IMG/VR virus record: IMGVR_UViG_3300049440_000240
Coordinates: 1 to 37,326 of that record
DNA: 37,326 nucleotides
Origin: a virus
Reading direction: 5' to 3' (one strand)
Notes under the pieces: generated by a model
Database searches by the model: none
The model's input: only the letters and a program-made list of their open reading frames with translations
What the model was told of the DNA's origin: nothing
Made by a program: the position numbers and the translations under genes
Part shown: positions 3,461-30,790 of the stretch, in pieces
Layout: each line of letters opens with the position of its first letter
Numbering within the stretch: position 1 is the first letter of the stretch

Positions 3461-5020
3461 ATGACGACCGAGCCACTGAAAGCGACGGCAGCCGAGCTGC
3501 CGCTGACAGAGCTGTTTGCCTCACCTCTGAACCCGCGAAAGCACTTTGATCCGCGCGGCATGGCCGAGCTCACCGAATCCGTCCGAGAGCACGGCGTGCT
3601 AACCCCGCTGCTGGTGCGCCCAGCAAAGCACGGACCTGGTGCCATCAAGTACGAGATCCTGGCAGGCGAGCGCCGCTACCGCGCGGCCAAGGCTGCAGAG
3701 CTCGCCGCCGTGCCCTGTATCGTGCGGCGGCTGGAGGATAGCGAAGCCCTCGAGCTGATGCTGATCGAGAACCTGCAGCGCGCCGACGTGCACCCGATCG
3801 AGGAGGCGCGGGGCTTTCAGCAGATGATGAACCTCGGCCGCTACACGCCGACGCAGCTCGCGGCCAAGATGGGCAAGGACGAGAGCTACGTCCGCCGGCG
3901 CGTCCACCTGCTCAAGCTCTTCGAGGGGTTCCAGGTCCTGTTCGAGAAGGGCGACATCCAGCTCGCGCACGCCCAGGAGCTCTGCCGGCTGACCGAGGGC
4001 GAACAGCGGCGCGCGATGAAGGCCTTCCGCGGCGGCCGCGGCTGGGATCACTGGGACACGCCGGGCGACCTGCGGCAGTGGATCGAAAACCACGTGCACA
4101 TGCAGCTCAAGAAGGCTGCATTCCCGAAGAACGACGCCGAGCTCGTGCCGGCGGCGGGCAGCTGCCTGGACTGTCCGAAGCGCACCGGATCGAGTCCGAT
4201 GCTGTTCCCGGACATCAAGAGCCCGGACATCTGCACGGATCCCGCGTGCTTCAACGGCAAACTCGATGCCTTCGTGAAAGCGGAAACGATTCGGCTGCGC
4301 GAGAAGGGCGAGCCATTCATCCTGATGACGTCGGTCGACAGCTACGAGCACCGGACGCCGCCGAAGGGCAGCGGGGCAGTTAGCTCGACCGAAATCAACA
4401 GCCGCGAAGAGGAGAAGGCCTGCAAGCACCAGGAGCTCGCGCTGATCGTCACCGGGCCGGACCGCGGCCACAAGCAGCGCATCTGCCGCGACAAAAAGTG
4501 CAGCGTGCATACCTGGTCGTCCAACGAGTCGCACCAAACGAGCAGCAAGAAGGCGCGCACGATCGAGAAGAAGCGGAAGCTCGAAATGAAGCGCCGCGGC
4601 GCGATCCTGGTCGCGATCGCAGCCAAGATCGGAGTAGGCACCTCGATCCCGCATCCCAGCGACGAGCAGCGCACGGACCTGCTGGTCTGGTGCGCCGGTC
4701 ATCTCAGCAGCGATCACGCCAGGATGATCTGCCAGGCGATGTCCTGGGAGACGAAGCAGAGCAGCTACGGCGGCCGCGACTTCTCTGGAACGCTTCAGCG
4801 CGAGATGCGGAAGGTTAACGGCGCCCACTGGGTCGCTTGGCTTGAAATCCTTCGGGCCGGAGAGCTGGACTGCTGGTGGTGGGCCGGAGGCAACTCCAAC
4901 CCGAAAATGCGCGCCCTTGATGCCCTCGCTAAGCGCGCCCACGTGGACGTCTCCAAGATCACAGCCGACTCGGCCGGGAAGCGAGAAAAAGCCCCCAAAG
5001 CCAAAGCCGCCCGAGCCTGA
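3461..5020 (+). CDS. ParB-like CTPase/DNA-binding protein with Cys-rich C-terminal half
   Basis: 519 residues, with AAAGGAG ahead of the ATG. ParB/Spo0J N-terminal motifs are intact: N24-P-R, GERRYRAA (69-76, CTP-binding box) and ENLQR (103-107). A helix-turn-helix follows (about 128-150, YTPTQLAAKMGKDESYVRRR). The C-terminal half is not the short dimerisation domain of chromosomal ParB. It is about 280 residues long with a Cys cluster starting at C235-x2-C238 (CLDCPKRTG, then CTDPACF) and a second Cys/His set (CKHQE, CRDKKC), like ParB-related proteins of mobile elements. No ParA is encoded anywhere. It may act as a partition, origin-control or transcription factor. Confidence 0.9.
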   Translation: MTTEPLKATAAELPLTELFASPLNPRKHFDPRGMAELTESVREHGVLTPLLVRPAKHGPGAIKYEILAGERRYRAAKAAELAAVPCIVRRLEDSEALELMLIENLQRADVHPIEEARGFQQMMNLGRYTPTQLAAKMGKDESYVRRRVHLLKLFEGFQVLFEKGDIQLAHAQELCRLTEGEQRRAMKAFRGGRGWDHWDTPGDLRQWIENHVHMQLKKAAFPKNDAELVPAAGSCLDCPKRTGSSPMLFPDIKSPDICTDPACFNGKLDAFVKAETIRLREKGEPFILMTSVDSYEHRTPPKGSGAVSSTEINSREEEKACKHQELALIVTGPDRGHKQRICRDKKCSVHTWSSNESHQTSSKKARTIEKKRKLEMKRRGAILVAIAAKIGVGTSIPHPSDEQRTDLLVWCAGHLSSDHARMICQAMSWETKQSSYGGRDFSGTLQREMRKVNGAHWVAWLEILRAGELDCWWWAGGNSNPKMRALDALAKRAHVDVSKITADSAGKREKAPKAKAARA

Positions 5021-5062
5021 ATCCGCCGAGGGTTAGTGCTACCTTGTGCGGGCCAACGGTTT

Positions 5063-5124
5063 CCCCGGCAGTGCGACGCGGACGGTGCAAGCCGGGCCGC
5101 GTGAGGGCTGGGCCACTGCCGGGG
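5063..5124 (+). ncRNA. Candidate structured RNA: nested stems with GNRA tetraloop
   Basis: An 11-bp perfect stem pairs 5063-5073 (CCCCGGCAGTG) with 5114-5124. Inside it, ACGCGG (5076-5081) pairs with CCGCGT (5097-5102), and CGGT/GCCG (5083-5086/5091-5094) closes a GCAA tetraloop. Bases 5103-5113 stay single-stranded. The element fills most of the only sizeable gap around parB, and TTTT follows at 5129-5132, so it may be an attenuator or terminator. It could instead be a ParB-binding dyad, since it begins 43 bases after parB. It sits 21 bases before the next start codon. Confidence 0.45.
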
Positions 5125-5903: not shown

Positions 5904-7433
5904 GTGGCGGCTAATTTGACGTTCAACATTTCCCAGCCACGGGCGCCCGAGGTCTTCACCGGACACCTATACCTGAACGGTCCACAGTGCGAGCTGCTCG
6001 AGGCGACGGAGCGCGAGGTGCTGATCGGGGGCGCCAAGCGCGGCGGCAAAACCGTGGGCAGCGCCGCGAAGGCGATCGCGCTGATGTCCGACTTCCCTGG
6101 CAACAAGGGCGTCGTCATCCGGCAGTCGCTCCCGGATCTCAAGGCCGGCTGGCTCGATGAGTTCCTGGCCATCTGCCCGCCCGGCTTCATCGTCGACCAC
6201 AACAAGCAGGAAAAGCAGATCACCGCGCGCAACGGCAGCCGGCTGCTCTACACCGGCGCCGGCGACGTCGTGGCCAGCAAGGCCGCCGAAAAGAAGAAGG
6301 GCATGAACGTGGGCTTTGCGATCTTCGAGGAGGGATCGGAGATCAAAGAGGAAGTCTATCTCATGGTGACCGGGCAGTTTAGCTGGAAGCTGCCCGACGG
6401 CTCGCGCCCTCTGTACCAGGCCATCGTCACGTCCAATCCAGAGCCCGGCTGGGTCAAGCGGCGATTTGTCGGCGATCTCTCGACCAAGACGCCCCCGATG
6501 GCTGGCACCCGGTTCATACCGGCGCTGCCCCGCGACAACGCCGACAACCTGCCGCCCGGCTGGGAGCAGGAGATGCGGCTCACCCGGCCGTCGGAGTGGA
6601 TCTCGAAGTACCTGGACGGCAACTGGGAGCTGTCCGAGGGCATGGTTTTCGAGGAGTTCGATCGGCGGATCCACCTGATCGAGCCGTTCGACTACCGCAA
6701 CTACAAGCTGTGGGAGGTCCTGGACCACGCCAGCACGGGCGTCACGGCCTACTACCCGGGCGCCGAAGACAGCGATGGCAACCTGTTCGTCCTCAACGAG
6801 TATTGGGGCGTTAACAAGCTGGTCAGCGAGCATTCCGTCCAGATCCACCTGATGCGCAACGAGGTCCTGGCGCAGTGCTTCGGGTCGGATGCGGAGCTCT
6901 ACCGCCGACGCGAGGGCGCGCCCTCGATCGCGCGCTTCTCGGAGTCTCTTATCGACCCTTCCACAGTGGCAAAGAATCAGCAGACCGCGAAGGGCCTCGA
7001 GTCGATCATGCAGATGTACGCCGACAACGGGCTGCGGTTCGCGGCCGCCTACAACTGGATCGCGGCCGGCATCGAGCGCTTCAAGGAATATCTGCACCCG
7101 AACCCGTTCCACCGGCACCCGTTCACGGCGAAGCCGGGCGCCCCGATGCTCTACTTCGTCCGCGACCGCTGCCCGAACCTCGTGCGCGAGATCGTGGAGC
7201 TCCGGAAAGTGGTGACCGACACCGGCAAGGTGGTGTATGTAGGCGAGGATCACGGGCTCGATTGCATCCGGTATAAGCTGAACGCGCAGTCGAGGCCGCC
7301 CAAGCGCACGAGGGGCGACCTGGCCAAATTGCCAGCGCAGGATCGCCGGGCGGTGGAGCAGCACGAGGCCTGGGCCAAGAAGTTTGGCAAAACCACCGGG
7401 AACCGCTGGTTTGCACCGGAAACGAGGCGATGA
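5904..7433 (+). CDS. Terminase large subunit
   Basis: 509 residues, usual length for TerL. The ATPase domain has a Walker A variant GGAKRGGKT (42-50) and a Walker B-like hydrophobic strand ending in acidic residues (FAIFEEGSEI, about 135-144). The RNase H-like nuclease domain shows an acidic residue after a hydrophobic strand (WEVLDHASTG, D274) and the late GEDHGLD motif near residue 447. The enzyme translocates DNA into the prohead and cuts the concatemer. The start is taken as GTG 5904; TTG 5913 is an alternative. No ribosome site is visible, but the upstream 12 bases are AT-rich. Confidence 0.95.
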   Translation: MAANLTFNISQPRAPEVFTGHLYLNGPQCELLEATEREVLIGGAKRGGKTVGSAAKAIALMSDFPGNKGVVIRQSLPDLKAGWLDEFLAICPPGFIVDHNKQEKQITARNGSRLLYTGAGDVVASKAAEKKKGMNVGFAIFEEGSEIKEEVYLMVTGQFSWKLPDGSRPLYQAIVTSNPEPGWVKRRFVGDLSTKTPPMAGTRFIPALPRDNADNLPPGWEQEMRLTRPSEWISKYLDGNWELSEGMVFEEFDRRIHLIEPFDYRNYKLWEVLDHASTGVTAYYPGAEDSDGNLFVLNEYWGVNKLVSEHSVQIHLMRNEVLAQCFGSDAELYRRREGAPSIARFSESLIDPSTVAKNQQTAKGLESIMQMYADNGLRFAAAYNWIAAGIERFKEYLHPNPFHRHPFTAKPGAPMLYFVRDRCPNLVREIVELRKVVTDTGKVVYVGEDHGLDCIRYKLNAQSRPPKRTRGDLAKLPAQDRRAVEQHEAWAKKFGKTTGNRWFAPETRR

Positions 7434-10998: not shown

Positions 10999-13257
10999 GT
11001 GGCTTCGATGGCGAACGCGGTGACGAGCAGCACTGGATCGCCCCACACCGGCGCGCCGGCGCAGAGCGGTCCAAGTAACTTCGCCACCGTCGTCCCCGTT
11101 CGACCGGGCGATGCCGACTTCGAAGAGCGCGCCAAGCAGCTCACCACCGGGACCTGGGACCGCCTCAAGAACGCCTACATCGTCTACCACCAGAGCGTTT
11201 GGGAAGCGCTGCTCTTCTACGTAAACCAGAGCTGGATCAAGCCGGACAGCGAGCGCAAGCTCTGGCAGCCGCAGATCCCCGACGACGATTTCACCCCGCA
11301 GCCCCGCATCAACCGCTTCGCGCCGTCGGTAGACGCGATCTCCTCCAACTTCCAGGTCCCCGAGGTCGAGTTCACGCCGGCAAAGCCCGACGACAACGTC
11401 TCGAACGCGGTAGCGGACATCGCCTCGATCCTGGCCGACCACTTCATGAAGGACAACGGGCTCAAGCAGGACATGCGCCAGGCCGACGAGGACGCCGTCG
11501 GCGATGCCGCGCAGCTGTTTGTGCTGGCCGGCTGCTGCTTCTCGCGCGTGTATCCGGAGTGGGAGAAGCTGGGCGAGGTCCCGCTCAAGTCCCAGGCGCC
11601 AGGCGTGGCGATGAGCTGCGCGAACTGCGATTTCTACAGCGCCGTGCCGGCGGCCGACGTCGTCATCGGCCCCGACGGGACCGTCAGCTGCCCGACGTGC
11701 GGCCGCGGCCTGCAGCCGGAACAGACGACGGTGATGGTGCCGGCCCAGGACGACGACGGCCAGCCGCTCATGATGCCCATCATGCGCGCCCGGGCAATTT
11801 GCAAGATGGGCAGCCCGCTGTGCGCCTTCCCGCGGCCGGGCTCGAAGACCATGAACAACTCGAACACGTTCCTGTGGGCGGAGCGGTTCACCCTCGACGA
11901 GATTTACCGGCTGTGGCAGTACGACGCCGAGCCCGACAACGTCTGGCCCGACGGCTACTCGATCACCTACGAGAGCGCGCTGAACTACTACTACCTGGGC
12001 TTCGCGCAGAGCGCGGCGCAGATGCGCGATGCCGCGATGGTCCTGCAGATGTTCGTGGAGCCGGGCAAGACCAAAGAGTTCCCCGAGGGCCTGTACTGCG
12101 TGTGCATCAACAGCAAGCTCGTTTGCGCGCACGGGTGGAAAGAGCTCTTCTCGAACGATCACCCCATCACCAAGGCGACCTACCTCGGCATCCCGCACCT
12201 GTTTTTCCCTCGATCGGTGTCCTTCGACCTGGTGGAGATCCAGAAGGAGACCAACAGCTATGAGGCTCTCATCAAGCTGCACGGGATGACCACGGCGGCC
12301 GAGCCCGTCGTCGTCGACGAGAACACCGTGGTCTCGGAAATCACCGGCCGCGGCGACAAGCTGATCTACTGGAAGGCGATCGGCCCGGGCAGCAAAGAGC
12401 CGCACCGTATGCAGCACGGCAGCCTGGACGACGGGGTCTACAAGCAGGTGGCCAGTCTGCGCAGCGACTTCCAGAACATTTCGATGGCGGTCAACGTCTT
12501 CCGCGGCCAGCAGGAGGGCTCGGCGTCGACGGGCGTCGCCATCAACGCGCTACGGGCGCAGGCGGAGCAAATGTTTAGCCGGCCGTCGCTGAACTGGTCG
12601 GCCTTCATCAAGGAAACCGTGCGCAAAGGCGTGAAGTGCATCCAGCGCCACTACACGCTGGCGCAGCTGCAGGAGATCGTCGGGCCGGACCGCGCGACGG
12701 AGATCCAGCAGTTCAAGACGGCCGACCTGGACACGATGACCGAGTGCGTGGCCACGTCGCACGGCCTGCCGAAGACGCGCGACGAGCGCCGCCAGGAGAT
12801 GATGGCGCTATTCGACAAGGGCGCTCTCGACATCCAGGACCCGAACGTCAAGCAGAAGATTTTCCAGCTCTTCGGCGAGACCGGGATGATGAAGACCTTC
12901 AACCTGGACGCCTCGCGCGCGCGCCGCGAAAACAACCTCATGCGCCAGGGCCAGCCCGTGCAGGTGATGCCCGAGTTTGAGGATATGGCGGTACACCTTT
13001 CACAGCACCTCGACAAGATCAAGGGCGCGGACTTCGACAGCTGGCCGCCGGGCCCGAAGCAGCTGCTCATGGAGCACACGCTCGAGACGCGCAACGCGAT
13101 GGCGCAGCAGGCTGCGGCAGCCGCGGCTGCGGCGGGGGGCCCTCCTGCAGGGGCTCCTCCGTCGGGCGCGCACCGCGCCGGCGCGCCACCCTTGCACCCA
13201 AAGGTAGTACACCCGCCCCAGCCGCAGCCCCAGCCACTCCCGGGAGGTGGACAGTGA
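10999..13257 (+). CDS. Portal protein (P22-like) with inserted zinc ribbon
   Basis: 752 residues, the size range of podovirus portals. It forms the dodecameric DNA gate at the head vertex and docks TerL. Supporting features: location after TerL and before scaffold and capsid, the long helical C-terminal half, and an Ala/Pro-rich disordered tail. A four-Cys zinc ribbon (C207, C210, C231, C234) interrupts the N-terminal half. GTG 10999 has AGAGGG close upstream; ATG 11008 is an alternative. The stop overlaps the next start as GTGA. Confidence 0.85.
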   Translation: MASMANAVTSSTGSPHTGAPAQSGPSNFATVVPVRPGDADFEERAKQLTTGTWDRLKNAYIVYHQSVWEALLFYVNQSWIKPDSERKLWQPQIPDDDFTPQPRINRFAPSVDAISSNFQVPEVEFTPAKPDDNVSNAVADIASILADHFMKDNGLKQDMRQADEDAVGDAAQLFVLAGCCFSRVYPEWEKLGEVPLKSQAPGVAMSCANCDFYSAVPAADVVIGPDGTVSCPTCGRGLQPEQTTVMVPAQDDDGQPLMMPIMRARAICKMGSPLCAFPRPGSKTMNNSNTFLWAERFTLDEIYRLWQYDAEPDNVWPDGYSITYESALNYYYLGFAQSAAQMRDAAMVLQMFVEPGKTKEFPEGLYCVCINSKLVCAHGWKELFSNDHPITKATYLGIPHLFFPRSVSFDLVEIQKETNSYEALIKLHGMTTAAEPVVVDENTVVSEITGRGDKLIYWKAIGPGSKEPHRMQHGSLDDGVYKQVASLRSDFQNISMAVNVFRGQQEGSASTGVAINALRAQAEQMFSRPSLNWSAFIKETVRKGVKCIQRHYTLAQLQEIVGPDRATEIQQFKTADLDTMTECVATSHGLPKTRDERRQEMMALFDKGALDIQDPNVKQKIFQLFGETGMMKTFNLDASRARRENNLMRQGQPVQVMPEFEDMAVHLSQHLDKIKGADFDSWPPGPKQLLMEHTLETRNAMAQQAAAAAAAAGGPPAGAPPSGAHRAGAPPLHPKVVHPPQPQPQPLPGGGQ

Positions 13258-14873
13258 AGCGTGCTATTTGGAGCTTGATCGGCGCCCTGTTCCTATTTGC
13301 GGCGCCGGCCTTGGCGCAGAACAACGCCGCCCGTCCACCAGACTGCTCGATCCCATTTTACTTCACCGGCACCGGGCGCGCGCCGAGCGTGGGATACGAT
13401 AACCGGGCGTCGGCCTGCACCACGTGGAGCTTGGTCTACTACGTCGAAGGATTCTCGGTCGTGTCGATCGAGGTGGACTCGGCTCCCAGCGTCGCGGGCG
13501 CCGCCGGGACGTGGGCCAGCTGGGCGGGCAGCATTTCCTCGGGGAGCCTGCCACTCACCTCGACGACGTCGGGGCAGATCACTGTCTACAAGTATTTTCC
13601 GTGGGTGTCCGTCAACCTGACGACGGCCACGGGCACGGGCGCAGTCTCTGGACAGCTCGTCGGATGGCGCCCCTTCGCCAACAGCGACGCGAATGCCTCG
13701 CCGCAGAGTGGGGCAGCCGCTGGCGGGACGTCCTCAAACTTCGGCGCCGCTTTCCCGGCGGCCGGCACCGCGATCGGCGCGAAGAACGGCCTCAACATGG
13801 TCAATCTGGCCGCCGACGGGTCGAACAACCTGGATGTCAACTGCGTCGTGGGCTGCGCCGGCGGATCGACGACGCCCTCCGACGCGTTTGCGAACCCGAC
13901 CACGGCCGGTCTGCAGTTCGCCCTCAACGCAGCCTGGAATGGTGCCTCCTGGGACCGGCTGCAGGATGACGCCAGCAAGAACCTCAAGGTGGTTGTGAAC
14001 GCGGCGCTGCCGGCGGGTGCCGCGACGATCGGCGCCGTGAACCAGGGGACGACACCCTGGGTCGACGCCGGCAACAAGACGAACAACAACGCCGCGCCCG
14101 GGGCGACCAACTTCGGCGATCTCCCGTGCATCGCGAACGCGGCCACGCAGACGTGGACGGAGGGCGACCAGGTTGCCGAGTCGTGTGACCTCTCCGGGCG
14201 CCAGCGGGTGCGTGGCGTCGGCGGCGATAACGACGTTGCTGCGACCACGGACCGCGTACCCGTACTGCCGGCGATCGCCGAGAGCAACATGCCGGCGGCA
14301 GCGACGGCGGGACGGAACACTGCAGCCCGCACGGATCTCCAAGGCGACACGCTCGGCGCCGCGATGCCGGCTACCAGTTTTGCGACCTTCACGGCCAACA
14401 AGCTCGGTCTGGCTTCGGCAGCGGCGGCTACCGACATCTCCTGCCTGCCCGGAAACGCAACGAACACGGTGGTCGTGACGCGCGTCCAGGTGACGGGCAC
14501 GCAGACCACGGCTGGAATTGTCGATCTGCAGCTCGTACAGCGCACCACGGCCGACACGCTGGGCACTTCTGCGGCGATGACGATCGTCAAGTTCGATACC
14601 AACGACGGCGCCGCGGTCAGCGCCCCGCTCACGTACACAGCGAACCCGACCATCAACTCCACGATCGGCAACTACGACAGCGTCAAGCTCGGGGTGCTGG
14701 CGCCGGCCAGCGTCTCGCCCTCCGACATCTACGTCTGGAAGCCGAGTGCGTTCGGGCAGTCGATCGTGCTGCGCGGGACCGCGCAGGAGGCTTGCCTGAA
14801 CCTCAACGGCGTCACCGTGACCGGCGGCAGCTTCGACATCACCTGGTACTGGATGGAGACGACGGGACTGTGA
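13254..14873 (+). CDS. Exported-looking virion-block protein, Ala/Thr-rich beta protein
   Basis: 539 residues. Residues 1-21 form a classic Sec signal peptide: K2-R3, a hydrophobic core and A-L-A before Q22. The rest is rich in Gly, Ala, Ser, Thr and Asn with few charges, typical of extended beta structures such as fibres or decoration proteins. It lies between portal and scaffold and is translationally coupled to the portal (GTGA). Possible roles are head decoration or fibre, or a cell-surface protein of the infected host. No family recognised. Confidence 0.65.
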   Translation: MKRAIWSLIGALFLFAAPALAQNNAARPPDCSIPFYFTGTGRAPSVGYDNRASACTTWSLVYYVEGFSVVSIEVDSAPSVAGAAGTWASWAGSISSGSLPLTSTTSGQITVYKYFPWVSVNLTTATGTGAVSGQLVGWRPFANSDANASPQSGAAAGGTSSNFGAAFPAAGTAIGAKNGLNMVNLAADGSNNLDVNCVVGCAGGSTTPSDAFANPTTAGLQFALNAAWNGASWDRLQDDASKNLKVVVNAALPAGAATIGAVNQGTTPWVDAGNKTNNNAAPGATNFGDLPCIANAATQTWTEGDQVAESCDLSGRQRVRGVGGDNDVAATTDRVPVLPAIAESNMPAAATAGRNTAARTDLQGDTLGAAMPATSFATFTANKLGLASAAAATDISCLPGNATNTVVVTRVQVTGTQTTAGIVDLQLVQRTTADTLGTSAAMTIVKFDTNDGAAVSAPLTYTANPTINSTIGNYDSVKLGVLAPASVSPSDIYVWKPSAFGQSIVLRGTAQEACLNLNGVTVTGGSFDITWYWMETTGL

Positions 14874-16345
14874 AGATTCGTCGGATCGCCCTGCTCGGCC
14901 TCTTGGCCCTGGTGTGCTCGGGGGCTCACGCGCAGACGCCGACGATCCGTCAGTTCACCAACGGGCCTGGTGTCAACAATGCGACGGCGACGACGTACGT
15001 GTGCCGTCTGGACTCGGTTTCGCTGGCCTCGAACTACCTCTTCGCCGTCTTCAATACCGCGACAGGGAATACCGGCGGCTCGGTCGCCGACGACAAAGGC
15101 AACACCTGGACTCGCGTGCTTGGCGCGGCCGGCAACCAGCGGATTGAGGTCTTCCAGTCCCCGGGCGCGGCCGCGGGCACGCAGAGGATTACCTACACGC
15201 CCTCGACTGGTGTGAACAACATCCAGGGCGGCTGCGGCGAGGCCTACAACGTCGCCACATCGAGCCCGGTCGACGGGACTGCTTGCAGCGGCACCAGCGC
15301 CGGCGCCACGGCCGTAGCGTGTAGCGCAGCGATCACCACGACGGTCTCGGGCGACCTGGTCCTGCAGTACGGCGTGCAGGATTCCGGGATCGGGATGACC
15401 TCCTGGACCCACGGCTCCTCGCCGTGGCTCTTCGCCAACGCGGGCGCTGACATCCAGATCGGCCAGGCGCTGCAGGCACAGGTGCAGCCTTCCTCGGGCG
15501 CGATCACGCCCTCGATGACCCAGGCACCATCGCACGCCTTCGACACGATCGGATGGGCCGTGAAGGCTGCGGCGGCCGGCACGGCGCCGACTGGAATGTA
15601 CGTTGAGGGTCTCGAGCACGCGAACATCTCGGGCGCCGCGGCCACGCCGGTCAAGGTTCCGTTCCCGTGCACGAACAGCAACACGATTGTCGTCCGGCCG
15701 ATTTTCATCGACGCGCTGACGATCACCGGCATCACCGACACGGTCGGGAACACGTACACGGCCGCCGCCGCGCAGATCAGCAACACCGGATCCGGCCAGG
15801 TGCGCGTGTGGGTCGCCGCCGGCGCCAGCTGCAGCCAGACAAATGTTCTCTCGCTGGCGTTCACCGGGGCGAATTCCTCCGGGCAGACGGCAATCGTCGA
15901 GGGCGTCGTCGGCGCCGCGAGCTCGCCGGTCGATACCAGCATCACGTGCGGCAGCTCCACGCATACGGGGAATAGCTGCCAGACCACGGGAAGCGACGCC
16001 ACGGCCGGGAGCCACTCCCTCGCCACGGTCACCATTGTCCCATCGACATCTTCGGGCCTGGTCTTCGCCTCGGTCGGTCTGACCAATCCCGAACCCTGTA
16101 ACGCCTCCGCGACCGGCCTATTGACAGCCATGATCTCGACGCCGGAGGCCTCGTCGGCGGACATGGACGAGAACAACTGCTGGAACATCGACTACAACGC
16201 CAGCAATGCCTCGCGCACCTACAACTTCACCATGCCGAACGGCGGGGCGGGCAACTGGGCGGCCTACGCCATCGCCCTGACGGCGCCGGCGAGCGGTAGC
16301 ACCCCCGCGATCAGCAAGCGCACTAAGCTGGAGGCTATCGAATGA
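14870..16345 (+). CDS. Exported-looking protein with two related beta domains
   Basis: 491 residues from GTG 14870 in a GTGA overlap. A Sec signal peptide (K2, R4-R5, core 6-18, A-H-A before Q22) is followed by two domains that look duplicated: each has a D-x-x-GN-T-W/Y segment (DDKGNTWTRV near 80, DTVGNTYTAA near 285) and a later SSPVD segment (about 128 and 350). Such domains are common in surface and fibre proteins. The Cys content is even, which would fit disulfides in an oxidising compartment. Confidence 0.65.
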   Translation: MKIRRIALLGLLALVCSGAHAQTPTIRQFTNGPGVNNATATTYVCRLDSVSLASNYLFAVFNTATGNTGGSVADDKGNTWTRVLGAAGNQRIEVFQSPGAAAGTQRITYTPSTGVNNIQGGCGEAYNVATSSPVDGTACSGTSAGATAVACSAAITTTVSGDLVLQYGVQDSGIGMTSWTHGSSPWLFANAGADIQIGQALQAQVQPSSGAITPSMTQAPSHAFDTIGWAVKAAAAGTAPTGMYVEGLEHANISGAAATPVKVPFPCTNSNTIVVRPIFIDALTITGITDTVGNTYTAAAAQISNTGSGQVRVWVAAGASCSQTNVLSLAFTGANSSGQTAIVEGVVGAASSPVDTSITCGSSTHTGNSCQTTGSDATAGSHSLATVTIVPSTSSGLVFASVGLTNPEPCNASATGLLTAMISTPEASSADMDENNCWNIDYNASNASRTYNFTMPNGGAGNWAAYAIALTAPASGSTPAISKRTKLEAIE

Positions 16346-16884
16346 AGCGCAACTGGTCGCTCTACGCAGTCCTAGCCTGCATGGTCCTGATCTTCGCGGC
16401 AGGCCTGCTCGTACCGCAGAGATGGGCCACGGTCGAAGCTCAGGGTGGCCCGTTCGGCGCACAGGCGATGTGCAACAGCGGGGTGGCCACGGGCAACTTC
16501 TGCAGCTTCTCGGCGGCACAGCTGGGCGTGAACGCCCTGACCGAGCCGGCCACGGGCACGACGGCGCTCTCGAACATTGTCGATACCCGCGGTGTCCGCG
16601 AGCTCACGCTGATTGCGGCCTGCAGCTCGGGCAACTGGACGGTGAACGTCCAGACCTACTTCGAGGACGGGACCACGGCCACGGCGTTCATCACGCCGCT
16701 GTCTGCGATCGCCGCCGGAGCCCCGACGCAGCTCAACATCGGAAGCGAGTCGAATCCATCGAGCAACACGGGAACGATCTCGACGACGGCCCTCGTGCGC
16801 CTCCCGCAGCGCGCGCTGGCCTTTAGCTTCACCAACGCGGGAGGCGCTGGCACGTGCACGGCGAGGATCTTCCTCGCATACTAA
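16342..16884 (+). CDS. Small exported-looking protein of the virion block
   Basis: 180 residues, started in an ATGA overlap. K2-R3, a hydrophobic run at 7-24 and V-E-A before Q34 make a long signal peptide or a signal anchor. The mature part is a compact beta-rich domain with five Cys. Third of three successive genes of this kind between portal and scaffold. Confidence 0.6.
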   Translation: MKRNWSLYAVLACMVLIFAAGLLVPQRWATVEAQGGPFGAQAMCNSGVATGNFCSFSAAQLGVNALTEPATGTTALSNIVDTRGVRELTLIAACSSGNWTVNVQTYFEDGTTATAFITPLSAIAAGAPTQLNIGSESNPSSNTGTISTTALVRLPQRALAFSFTNAGGAGTCTARIFLAY

Positions 16885-16897
16885 AGCGGAGGCACCG

Positions 16898-17950
16898 ATG
16901 AACGATCACTACGAGATCCGAGGCCTGGCGGCGCTGCTGCAGTTCCGCGGGCTGCATTTCTTTCCCGATGAAGGCGGCGACGGCGGAGGCGGAGCCGCCG
17001 GCGCGGGAGGCGGCGATGGAGCTGGGAGTGGAGCTGCTGGCGGGGCTGGCGGCGCGGGTGGCGATGGCGCTGGAGCTGGCGGCGCTGCTGGTGCTGGCGG
17101 CGGTGGCGATGCTGGCGCTGGCGGCGGAGGTGGAGCGGCGGCGGCGAGTGCGGCGGGCGATAACGTCGCCGAGCTGCGGCGCAACTACGAGTCCGCCAAA
17201 ACCAACCTCGAAAAGTGGACCAAGCTCGGGGCCGACCCCGATCAGGTAGCGCAGCACGCGACCGCCGGCCAGAAGCTCTACACGCAGTATGAGGGCATCG
17301 CGACCCGGCTGGGCTACAAGAAAGAAGAGTTCCAGGAGGCCTACAACGCGGATCCGGGCAAGGTCATCGCGTTCCTGGGGCGCAAGGCCGCCGAACGCCA
17401 GGCCGCCGAAGCCGCAAACGGCAACAAACCGCTCACGCGCGACGAGATCAACCGGCTGCTCGAGGACAAGCTCAACGAGAAGACGGCGCCCCTCGAAGAG
17501 CGCGAGAACCTCCGTCTGGCAAATGAAGCCGATTTCAAGGTTTCACAGACCTTCGAAAAGCTCGGGCAGACCACGTTCACGCCCGAGGGCTGGAAGGCAA
17601 TGCCGCAGGGGGAGCGAGACACCCTGCAGCTCGTGATGCAGGAAATGCTTGCATACGACGAGCCCGCGCTGATCGAGATCAAGACCAAGGGCGCGACGGC
17701 GCCGGTCCAGAAATACTTCCAGGAGGCGGTGAAATTCCTGGACACCTACTACAACGCCCGACTTTCGAGAGAGACCGGAGGGGGCGCCGCGCGGGCCGCG
17801 GGAGCAGGCGCTGGCGCGAATGGTGGCGGCGGAAAGGGCAAAGGTGGTGGCGCAGCGACCCCTCCGGGCGTCAACGCGGCCACCGGAAAGCCCTGGACGA
17901 TCAACGAGCTGATCGAGGATCCGAGCCGCATCGGAGCGGCGTACAAGTAG
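16898..17950 (+). CDS. Capsid scaffolding protein with Gly/Ala-rich segments
   Basis: 350 residues. Directly before the major capsid gene, highly charged and helical (residues 90-290), with coiled-coil stretches (ELRRNYESAKTNLEKWTKL; RDEINRLLEDKLNEK), matching phage scaffolds. An unusual Gly/Ala/Asp repeat fills about residues 27-88 and a second Gly-rich segment lies near 293-322. Its C-terminal ITINEL-like helix (WTINELIEDPSRIG) may bind coat protein. The Gly region is encoded by a G-rich top strand. Confidence 0.7.
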   Translation: MNDHYEIRGLAALLQFRGLHFFPDEGGDGGGGAAGAGGGDGAGSGAAGGAGGAGGDGAGAGGAAGAGGGGDAGAGGGGGAAAASAAGDNVAELRRNYESAKTNLEKWTKLGADPDQVAQHATAGQKLYTQYEGIATRLGYKKEEFQEAYNADPGKVIAFLGRKAAERQAAEAANGNKPLTRDEINRLLEDKLNEKTAPLEERENLRLANEADFKVSQTFEKLGQTTFTPEGWKAMPQGERDTLQLVMQEMLAYDEPALIEIKTKGATAPVQKYFQEAVKFLDTYYNARLSRETGGGAARAAGAGAGANGGGGKGKGGGAATPPGVNAATGKPWTINELIEDPSRIGAAYK

Positions 17951-18072
17951 GGCCAAGTTTGGCGTGACACGTCTCCGGGCTCGCCATCCGGGAGGCTGAA
18001 AGGCGCCCCGCCAGCGCACGCTCACCACGCGCACCTCCGCGGACCGACGATAGAACCCACGAGGAGAAAAGT

Positions 18073-19500
18073 GTGCGAAATCAAAATCGGAGCGTAGCGG
18101 TGGCAGCGCTGCGCCTGGCGGCCGGCACGTTCGGCCTCCTGGTGATGCTGCTCGCCGCGGTAGGACACGCCCACGGAGGGACTGCGCCTCTGCTGGCCGT
18201 GGTTTCCACCACGACCTACCTCGCCGACGCCAAGATCGTGTACGGGGCGATCCAGAACCAGGTGTCGACGCAGGCCATCGTGATGAACCTGTTCGGAGAC
18301 GGGTCGAAGTTCGGCAAGCCGGTCAACAACATCGGCGCGCGCGGCTACGTGTTCCTGGCGAGACTCCAGCCGAATTGGAACCTGGGGTACCGCGTGGAAG
18401 GCGTGACCGGCGTAGGGACGTCGGGTAACCAGGGCCTGCAACAGGCCACGGTGACCCTGCGGTACGCCTACGTGCCGATCGCCATCACCGGCCAGGCCGA
18501 AAACCTGACCAAGGGCGAGAGCCGGGCCTTCATGCAGGCCAAGGCACTCGAAGCGAAATACGATATGGAGGACCTGACCAGCCACGTCAACGTGGTGGTG
18601 GCGGGCGCGCAGCCGGGTGGCGCACTCGCGACGGTGACGGGCGCGGGCGTCGGGACCTTCACGGCATCCAACGCCGGCAACCTGCCGGGCGCAATTTTCC
18701 TGCGTATCAACCAGATCGTCGACTCGACGCCGGTCGCCGGCGCCGCGTCGTCCACAGCCGGCGCAACGATCTCGGCCATCAACTACGGCACGCGCGTCGT
18801 GACCCTCGTCGGCGGCTCGGGCGCCAACACGCCGGTCAACGGCGACGTCATCACGCTCACGGGTGAGTATCCGCAGTCGGCCATCACCGGCGACGGGTAC
18901 ATCACCGCGAATGGGCTGAACGTCATCGTCAGCGCCACGGGCCTGATGCAGGGCCTCAATCCGGCCACGGGTGGCCAGCAGAGCTGGGCGGCCTACACGG
19001 CCGACGCCGGCCCGGCGGTCATCAGCTCGCCAGCGCTGCAGCAGATGCGGCAGTTCGTCAAGAATCGCGGCGGGGTAGACCCCGACGTGTTCCTGACGGG
19101 CTCCGCGCAGATCAACCAGCTGGTGAACATCGCCACGCAAACGCTCCGATTCGACGTCAACCTGGCGCGCACCGCGGGCCAGAAGCAGGCGCTCAACCTG
19201 GGCTTCGCGGCCTTCGATTACGCCGGCTTGATGATGATCGAGGACAAGGACATCCAGCCGGACCGGGTGTTCTGCCTCGCGACCGAAATGATGAAGAAGT
19301 TCGAGGCGCTGCCGCTGTCGCTCGCAGAGGACGAGGCGGGCACCTGGACTCGCATCTCCGGCGCCAACGGGATCGCGGACGCTGTCCAGGGTCTGCTCCG
19401 CTGGTACCACAACATCGGCACGCTGCAGCGCAGCTCGACGGGGTTGCTGTTTGACCTGACCGTCCCGGCCGCGTTCGCAACGACGCCGCCGACGCTCTAA
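18073..19500 (+). CDS. Major capsid protein with signal-peptide-like N-terminus
   Basis: 475 residues from GTG 18073, with GAGGAGAAAAGT immediately upstream. Downstream of residue 40 it reads as a coat protein: a helical segment (NLTKGESRAFMQAKALEAKY), a P-loop-like P-domain segment (DPDVFLTGSAQINQLVN), and a late FAAFDYAGLMMIEDKDIQPDR strand pair followed by coat-like closing residues. Residues 1-33 contain R2, R6 and R14, a hydrophobic core at 15-30 and G-H-A before H34, resembling a Sec signal. The next in-frame ATG (18145) lacks a ribosome site. Confidence 0.8.
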   Translation: MRNQNRSVAVAALRLAAGTFGLLVMLLAAVGHAHGGTAPLLAVVSTTTYLADAKIVYGAIQNQVSTQAIVMNLFGDGSKFGKPVNNIGARGYVFLARLQPNWNLGYRVEGVTGVGTSGNQGLQQATVTLRYAYVPIAITGQAENLTKGESRAFMQAKALEAKYDMEDLTSHVNVVVAGAQPGGALATVTGAGVGTFTASNAGNLPGAIFLRINQIVDSTPVAGAASSTAGATISAINYGTRVVTLVGGSGANTPVNGDVITLTGEYPQSAITGDGYITANGLNVIVSATGLMQGLNPATGGQQSWAAYTADAGPAVISSPALQQMRQFVKNRGGVDPDVFLTGSAQINQLVNIATQTLRFDVNLARTAGQKQALNLGFAAFDYAGLMMIEDKDIQPDRVFCLATEMMKKFEALPLSLAEDEAGTWTRISGANGIADAVQGLLRWYHNIGTLQRSSTGLLFDLTVPAAFATTPPTL

Positions 19501-30061: not shown

Positions 30062-30790
30062 ATGCGGCAAATTGCCTGGAACCGCGTCCTGCAAATTCTG
30101 CAAATTCTGCTTCTGGTGGGGCTGGTCTGTGGATCCGCGAGGGCCTCGACCTCGACGCTGACGGGCACGCTCCTGGACAGCAACGGCAACCCGTTCAATG
30201 GCCGCGTGACGTTCCAGCTGCCGATGTCCGCGATCGACATGACCAACAATGCCGCGATCGCGCCGACGGTGTCGAGCTTCGCGGTGCGCAACGGATCCTT
30301 CCAGCCGAACGCCACCCTCGAGGACGTCAACACGCTCTCGCCGGCGGGCCTGTACTACACGGCCTATCGCTACGATGCGAGCGGGGGACTGATCTCGATC
30401 GACAACTACCTGGTGACCGGCGCGTCGTTCAATTTTGGCTTGGCGCTGCCGGTGGCCGTGACGACGTCGAACGTGACGCTCCTGCAGCCGGCGAGCCTGG
30501 CTGTGGCGCAGACCTGGACGGCGCTGCAGACGTTCAACCTGGGCGTCTCTGTCCTGCGGCACCTGAACGCGGCCGCCGGCGGCGACGTCGCCGGCGCGAG
30601 CTCCTGCAGCACGGGGACCAAGACCATTACGTTTGCGAGCACCTTCGCATCGACGCCGGCAGTGATCGTGTCGGATGAGACCGCGGCCGGCGGCGCCAGG
30701 GTGAGCTCGAAGAGCAACAGCGGATTTACCGTGGCCTGCACGGGGGCCTCGGACGCATTCGATTACCTCGTCGTCGGACAACCGAACTAG
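30062..30790 (+). CDS. Tail fibre / receptor-binding protein
   Basis: 242 residues from ATG 30062, which follows GGAAGGGAGAG; ATG 30023 (255 residues) also has a good site. The 30062 start gives a Sec-like signal peptide (R2, core 9-22, A-R-A before S29). The N-terminal domain (TLTGTLLDSNGNPFNGRVTF) is a beta sandwich. The C-terminal 60 residues (TITFASTFASTPAVIV, then SGFTVACTGASDAFDYLVVG) match the closing domain of many phage fibres and H-type-lectin-like tips. It probably binds the host receptor. Confidence 0.7.
   Translation: MRQIAWNRVLQILQILLLVGLVCGSARASTSTLTGTLLDSNGNPFNGRVTFQLPMSAIDMTNNAAIAPTVSSFAVRNGSFQPNATLEDVNTLSPAGLYYTAYRYDASGGLISIDNYLVTGASFNFGLALPVAVTTSNVTLLQPASLAVAQTWTALQTFNLGVSVLRHLNAAAGGDVAGASSCSTGTKTITFASTFASTPAVIVSDETAAGGARVSSKSNSGFTVACTGASDAFDYLVVGQPN

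Follow-up and report, generated by a model that had tools for sequence, protein, structure and literature searches.

A hydrophobic N-terminal module ahead of the coat fold in the major capsid protein of an uncultured tailed phage

The head gene region and the extended coat gene

The window analysed here is the whole of IMG/VR virus record IMGVR_UViG_3300049440_000240, a stretch of 37.3 kb (37,326 nucleotides) with a G+C content of 65.6%, and stems from a little-known, soil-type group of uncultured tailed phages. Its head genes are arranged in the order terminase large subunit (5904–7433), portal protein (10999–13257, plus strand, as are all head features given below), three signal-peptide genes, a scaffold-like gene and the major capsid protein gene. 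The context of a head module is set by the portal protein, which matches phrog_156. The three genes behind it encode proteins with Sec-type signal peptides (cleavage site marked by a slash): a 539-aa protein (13254–14873; MKRAIWSLIGALFLFAAPALA/QNN, ending in APALA/QNN), a 491-aa protein (14870–16345; MKIRRIALLGLLALVCSGAHA/QTP, ending in SGAHA/QTP), for which the start at 14870 is favoured over a TTG at 14792, and a 180-aa protein (16342–16884; ending in WATVEA/QGG). Outside this region, a protein with a ParB-like N-terminal domain (3461–5020; phrog_4715, E 3e-41) is encoded shortly before the terminase gene, and a signal-peptide-like protein (30062–30790; ending in CGSARA/STS) has a weak match to H-type lectins (E 0.005, below the Pfam cut-off).

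The gene directly upstream of the coat gene (16898–17950) is probably the scaffold gene, judging from its position and composition. Its product consists of a Gly/Ala-rich N-terminal linker and a charged, probably helical body, and gave no family match above noise. It is separated from the coat gene by the leader of the coat mRNA (17951–18072), which contains two hairpins (17975–17991 and 18003–18017) and, at 18061–18066, the Shine-Dalgarno (SD) sequence GAGGAG of the extended coat protein (AGGAG, spacing 6).

The coat ORF starts with GTG at 18073, ends at 19500 and encodes 475 aa; the N-terminus of the protein reads MRNQNRSVAVAALRLAAGTFGLLVMLLAAVGHAHGGTAPLLAV followed by VSTTTYL. The match to phrog_14242 (major head protein, E=1.1e-20) covers residues 46–463 only, and 12 aligned relatives begin at the equivalent of residue 42–43. 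Consequently, the extension comprises 43 residues (18073–18201) rather than the roughly 33 added residues proposed in the initial annotation, and the coat core runs from V44 (VSTTTYLADAK) to the stop codon (18202–19500). Nor is GTG 18073 unique in having a ribosome site, as had been stated, since GTG 18100 has a GGAG at a spacing of 7; its product would keep the hydrophobic helix. In contrast, the main observation of that annotation, that the coat fold is preceded by an unusual membrane-type N-terminus, is confirmed: the extension has an SD of its own, is used like coding sequence in its frame and has homologues in three relatives. In frame, the extension reaches a codon-usage score of +5.7 bits (5th percentile of in-frame sequence 2.1; 95th percentile out of frame −11.7), whereas the leader upstream of the start scores −19 to −27. 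We conclude that the 43-residue extension is a genuine coding N-terminal module of the coat protein.

Hydrophobicity was judged by hydropathy (KD19), helical moment and a simple signal-peptide rule. The KD19 mean of the extension is 2.07, a value matched by about 1e-4 of base-shuffled open versions. R2 and R6 form a basic n-region, which is followed by hydrophobic residues 8–31. AlphaFold2 predicts a helix for residues 8–33 (18094–18171; pLDDT mostly 73–79), whose core is transmembrane-like in hydropathy when compared to shuffles, and by-eye sequence comparison places a HAHGG motif (18166–18180) after the helix. The model of the whole coat protein is poor (mean pLDDT 46), too much so to locate the N-terminus; its best Foldseek matches are phage capsid chains including HK97-fold ones (E about 0.01), and the best hit of a PDB profile search was a capsid protein as well (E 0.034). 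The extension alone found no match in PHROGs and phage records.

Extension types among related coat genes

Viral contigs were scanned with the window coat and with profiles; as later scans yielded hardly any new loci, this set is near saturation. After merging identical copies, 23 distinct coat genes were obtained, i.e., the window and 22 contigs with a readable coat N-terminus (gene calls in relatives are based on the longest ORF). Thirteen of these start at the core with M[A/G/S/P]-VDTTTYL or an equivalent, and a ribosome site is recognisable in all but one of the twelve extension-less genes scanned. The thirteenth (L009) is interrupted after KIV: 679 nt (4412–5090) are inserted exactly between KIV and YGA. 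By eye, the insert has a 3′ end like that of group I introns and, in antisense, an ORF resembling HNH endonucleases; it gave no match in Rfam. A further contig, L035, encodes a coat C-terminus (3908–4321) and no coat N-terminal half was found upstream; it is probably chimeric or rearranged.

The remaining ten genes (window and nine others) bear an extension. Relatives starting at residue 35–40 with ribosome sites of their own had been named in the initial annotation as evidence against the extension. Twelve such relatives exist, but they stand beside ten extended genes including the window, and the extension is therefore facultative rather than spurious.

The extensions fall into five mutually unrelated types, all of which are hydrophobic (combined p about 4e-7, using one member per type; types C, D and E each rest on one distinct sequence). 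Type A (window, L001, L030 and L013, the latter identical to L014) has a basic start, followed by a long helix of hydrophobic character that includes G-x-x-[GA]-L. Its members are homologous in pairwise comparisons (z up to 7.4, with 0 of 500 shuffles as high), and an HG-rich stretch follows the helix in three of the four. By eye, HG/GH motifs were seen at the place of HAHGG in L001 (HGLGH), L030 (HGIAHG) and also L021 (GHGH). Type B (L006, L010, L016) has only 20 residues of the form M[LF][KR][FW]F…P[SR]A directly ahead of VDTTTY, and is amphipathic, its helical moment exceeding that of about 95–99% of shuffles (p 0.007–0.045). Type C (L015, identical to L019) contains two hydrophobic stretches and type D (L023) a single long one. 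Type E (L021) lies in a different frame, which joins the coat frame only through a +1 shift at GTT TGA C: the hydrophobic leader ORF (4886–5015) ends with GGCGGGGTT TGA C, and a +1 frameshift would fuse it to the coat core. The site resembles the frameshift site of prfB, but the frame break may be an assembly error.

These start regions bear on two alternative readings of the gene. If translation began near residue 43, the extension would be an untranslated leader, a reading which we consider highly improbable. It could draw on the twelve relatives that begin there, on the presence of GTG 18199 and on a CTG at 18190 with GGAGG upstream. However, the extension has coding-like codon usage, homologous extensions are present in three other phages, and the three type B genes have a conserved SD at the start of the extension and no ribosome site at internal starts near the core, for which reason type B is most likely translated. 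In the window coat gene, too, no ATG, GTG or TTG near the core has a ribosome site. Alternatively, two products may be made through an internal start or a frameshift, a long membrane-bound minor one and a short shell-forming major one. We regard this as unlikely, since the window, L001, L006, L010 and L016 have no internal start near the core that is backed by a ribosome site, and the break in L021 may be erroneous. In its favour, L023 has retained an internal ATG with GGAG at the border to the core and L013 an ATG-GGT-GTC that lacks a ribosome site, and the leader ORF of L021 could meet the coat frame by a prfB-like shift.

The extension types are scattered over the tree of the coat core. Type A sequences do not group, and well-supported branches force at least three changes. 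Thus, the start codon is a place where the module is acquired, lost or swapped. Type B loci keep the start codon and SD of their extension-less sisters (CAACGGAGA), with the module located between start codon and core. Type B cores are about 95% identical, in contrast to 37–47% for the extensions; dN is 0.034–0.045 in the core and 0.44–0.77 in the extension, which means that the extension evolves about 10–20 times faster at the amino-acid level. Since thirteen relatives lack the module, some of them very close to extended ones, it is not required by the coat fold.

A second feature of these loci is found in the capsid mRNA leaders of the window, L001–L008, L010, L016, L017, L020 and L021, which contain one to four (mostly two to three) short hairpins spaced about 25 nt apart. 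Their stem sequences differ, and the loops are built around YYCGYCM. This motif comes from the leaders themselves, unlike the stem test: YYCGYCM with a stem of at least 4 bp applies to 28 of 38 leader copies and to 13 of 518 copies elsewhere (Fisher p 5e-29). No Rfam match was found in the window. The hairpins may serve the coat gene as a translational operator. A dependence of the extension on them was rejected, because hairpins occur with and without extensions. Likewise, no separate small upstream ORF encoding the module was seen by eye in the leaders of extension-less phages; only L021 has it in a separate frame.

A proposed membrane-interacting helix and its alternatives

HK97-fold coat proteins are treated as soluble and cytoplasmic, and an export signal on one would be unusual. 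Signal peptides as such are common in these operons: applying a fixed rule, a Sec-like signal peptide was found in 26 of 85 genes within 5 kb upstream of the coat gene compared to 1 of 55 downstream. Many of them have sites of the type A-x-A followed by Q. Such genes are concentrated between portal and scaffold, where they encode varied proteins without family match; they were not found upstream in L019, L022, L023, L024 and L030. The extension itself resembles Sec signal peptides and signal-anchors in its basic start, its long hydrophobic helix and its fast sequence change with the property kept. It differs from them in having no consensus cleavage site, and several extension types are not signal-like. 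The possible cleavage sites in the coat extension of the window, G-H-A among them, are all weak (rule score 2), in contrast to the A/Q sites of the three upstream signal peptides. Only weak sites were detected in the coat extensions generally, and types B and C fail the rule; type B, e.g., MLKWFSFFLRMWLKMLWPSA, is too short and too charged for a signal peptide or a transmembrane span. Judged by these sequence properties, the extension is not a convincing cleavable export signal. Since its sites are weak and two types fail the rule, a membrane-interacting helix instead of a processed signal or a fixed sequence is the best explanation of what the module shares across the family. Of the signal-peptide-like N-terminus initially proposed, the hydrophobic helix is hence supported, whereas the export function is not.

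True export of the coat by the Sec pathway, with removal of the extension by signal peptidase I, appears improbable to us. The basic n-region, the hydrophobic h-region, G-H-A before H34 and the real signal peptides in the same operon would agree with it. However, the coat lacks the A-x-A/Q site of the other signal peptides of the same phage, type B cannot be a signal peptide, the coats of extension-less relatives have no export signal, and packaging needs a cytoplasmic terminase, portal and ATP. Assembly outside the cytoplasm, also considered initially, is very unlikely in a phage with terminase and portal.

We tentatively propose, with somewhat less than even confidence, that the extension directs the coat protein to the inner membrane during procapsid assembly. 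New coat protein would be brought to the cytoplasmic face of the inner membrane, the long types by signal-anchor-like targeting and the amphipathic type by peripheral insertion. Procapsids would form at the membrane, and on closure of the shell the module would be buried inside or lost. We infer membrane contact, place of assembly and fate of the module. The proposal is supported by the module's own SD and in-frame codon usage, by the homology of type A sequences despite their not grouping on the core tree, and by the hydrophobic nature of all five unrelated types together with the amphipathicity of type B. The high dN of an extension that stays hydrophobic is what one would expect from a helix with a targeting or anchoring role. 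The many membrane- or export-directed N-termini in the head operons and the similar hydrophobic start of several scaffold-like proteins point in the same direction, as do the membrane-attached proheads of T4 and SPN3US, which establish the inner membrane as a known place of prohead assembly (PMC9958956, PMC9026906). An anchoring of prohead assembly to the inner membrane, suggested in the initial annotation, is the best current reading; as a whole, the interpretation given there is partly supported.

Several points argue against it. In procapsids of the HK97 type, an N-terminal extension faces the interior (PMC12749128), and it is difficult to see how every subunit could then sit in a membrane. 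By charge bias, with Arg residues before the helix, a signal-anchor would place the coat core at the wrong side, a problem that would not arise if the protein were bound to the membrane surface only. Moreover, the extension is missing from thirteen relatives, among them very close ones, and its removal would need a protease, for which no candidate was recognised: about 30 window proteins gave no prohead protease match to PHROGs at useful E-values, although a divergent one could escape.

The main rival is a lumenal assembly element, i.e., a helix packing on the scaffold or on itself inside the procapsid, like a small HK97 delta-domain without membrane contact. It is the main rival because the HK97 and D3 extensions face the interior and are digested, while no protease was recognised here. 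The N-terminal scaffold (delta) domains of HK97 and D3 are coiled coils of 102–113 residues, which point inwards and are cleaved by a protease (PMC12749128). Both they and the present module are additions before the coat fold that are possibly removed. The extensions described here are different, being 20–44 residues long, hydrophobic and accompanied by a separate scaffold-like gene; being 43 residues long and hydrophobic, the window extension is not a coiled coil of about 100 residues. Conservation of G-x-x-[GA]-L in the helix of the four homologous type A extensions would suit a packing role. The scaffold-like proteins of L004, L005, L006, L008, L010, L016 and L020 (at 3451, 3851, 3831, 3895, 3838, 3726 and 3917, respectively) have hydrophobic N-termini of about 20 residues, which end in a FAAGAPA-like sequence followed by a long Gly-rich linker. 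These N-termini fit the membrane and the lumenal reading alike. Three points count against the lumenal reading: by eye, the presence of an extension is uncorrelated with the type of scaffold N-terminus; similarity between the latter and type B is weak (z up to 3.6, mostly < 2), too weak for type B to have been copied from there; and the long types approach transmembrane-grade hydrophobicity. Taken together, we consider a lumenal role possible yet doubtful.

Relation to known phages and implications

The window coat gave no match to cultured phages. Distant Jasminevirus-like coats were reached only via sister proteins, e.g., L002 and Brad with 95% coverage and 24% identity. The coats of Jasminevirus (Arthrobacter phages Brad and Jasmine) and of phrog_14242 are homologous to the window family in the core. 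Unlike the window coat, those of Jasminevirus, Cellulosimicrobium phage DS1 and ctEqG8 lack an extension and start with the core. The T4 and SPN3US proheads share with our proposal the building of proheads at the inner membrane, here proposed from sequence. The T4 prohead, however, is tethered through its portal (PMC9958956) and attaches via portal and core, not via a hydrophobic coat N-terminus. The coat core accordingly belongs to a known family, and for the hydrophobic N-terminal module we found no described precedent: in the literature searched, with subscription papers outside its scope, no HK97-fold phage coat is described with such a module. Relatives were absent from the 84,980 bacterial and archaeal species genomes scanned, and therefore no host is shown; the style of the signal peptides allows the guess of a soil Gram-negative.

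The module marks an uncultured phage group with an unusual wealth of membrane-directed and secreted proteins in its head operon. Close coats differing mainly in the presence, absence or type of the module represent a natural experiment on the place of head assembly, and matched pairs such as L016 and L004 allow a direct test of its effect. In a bolder and rather unlikely version of the membrane proposal, the coat would be a membrane protein before assembly. Each subunit of the shell would join the procapsid with a helix that interacts with lipid, and unrelated helices would be swapped at the start codon as a cassette for targeting, which may be suited to the envelope of the host. If true, a coat that is a membrane protein prior to assembly would amount to a novel mode of head formation in tailed phages.
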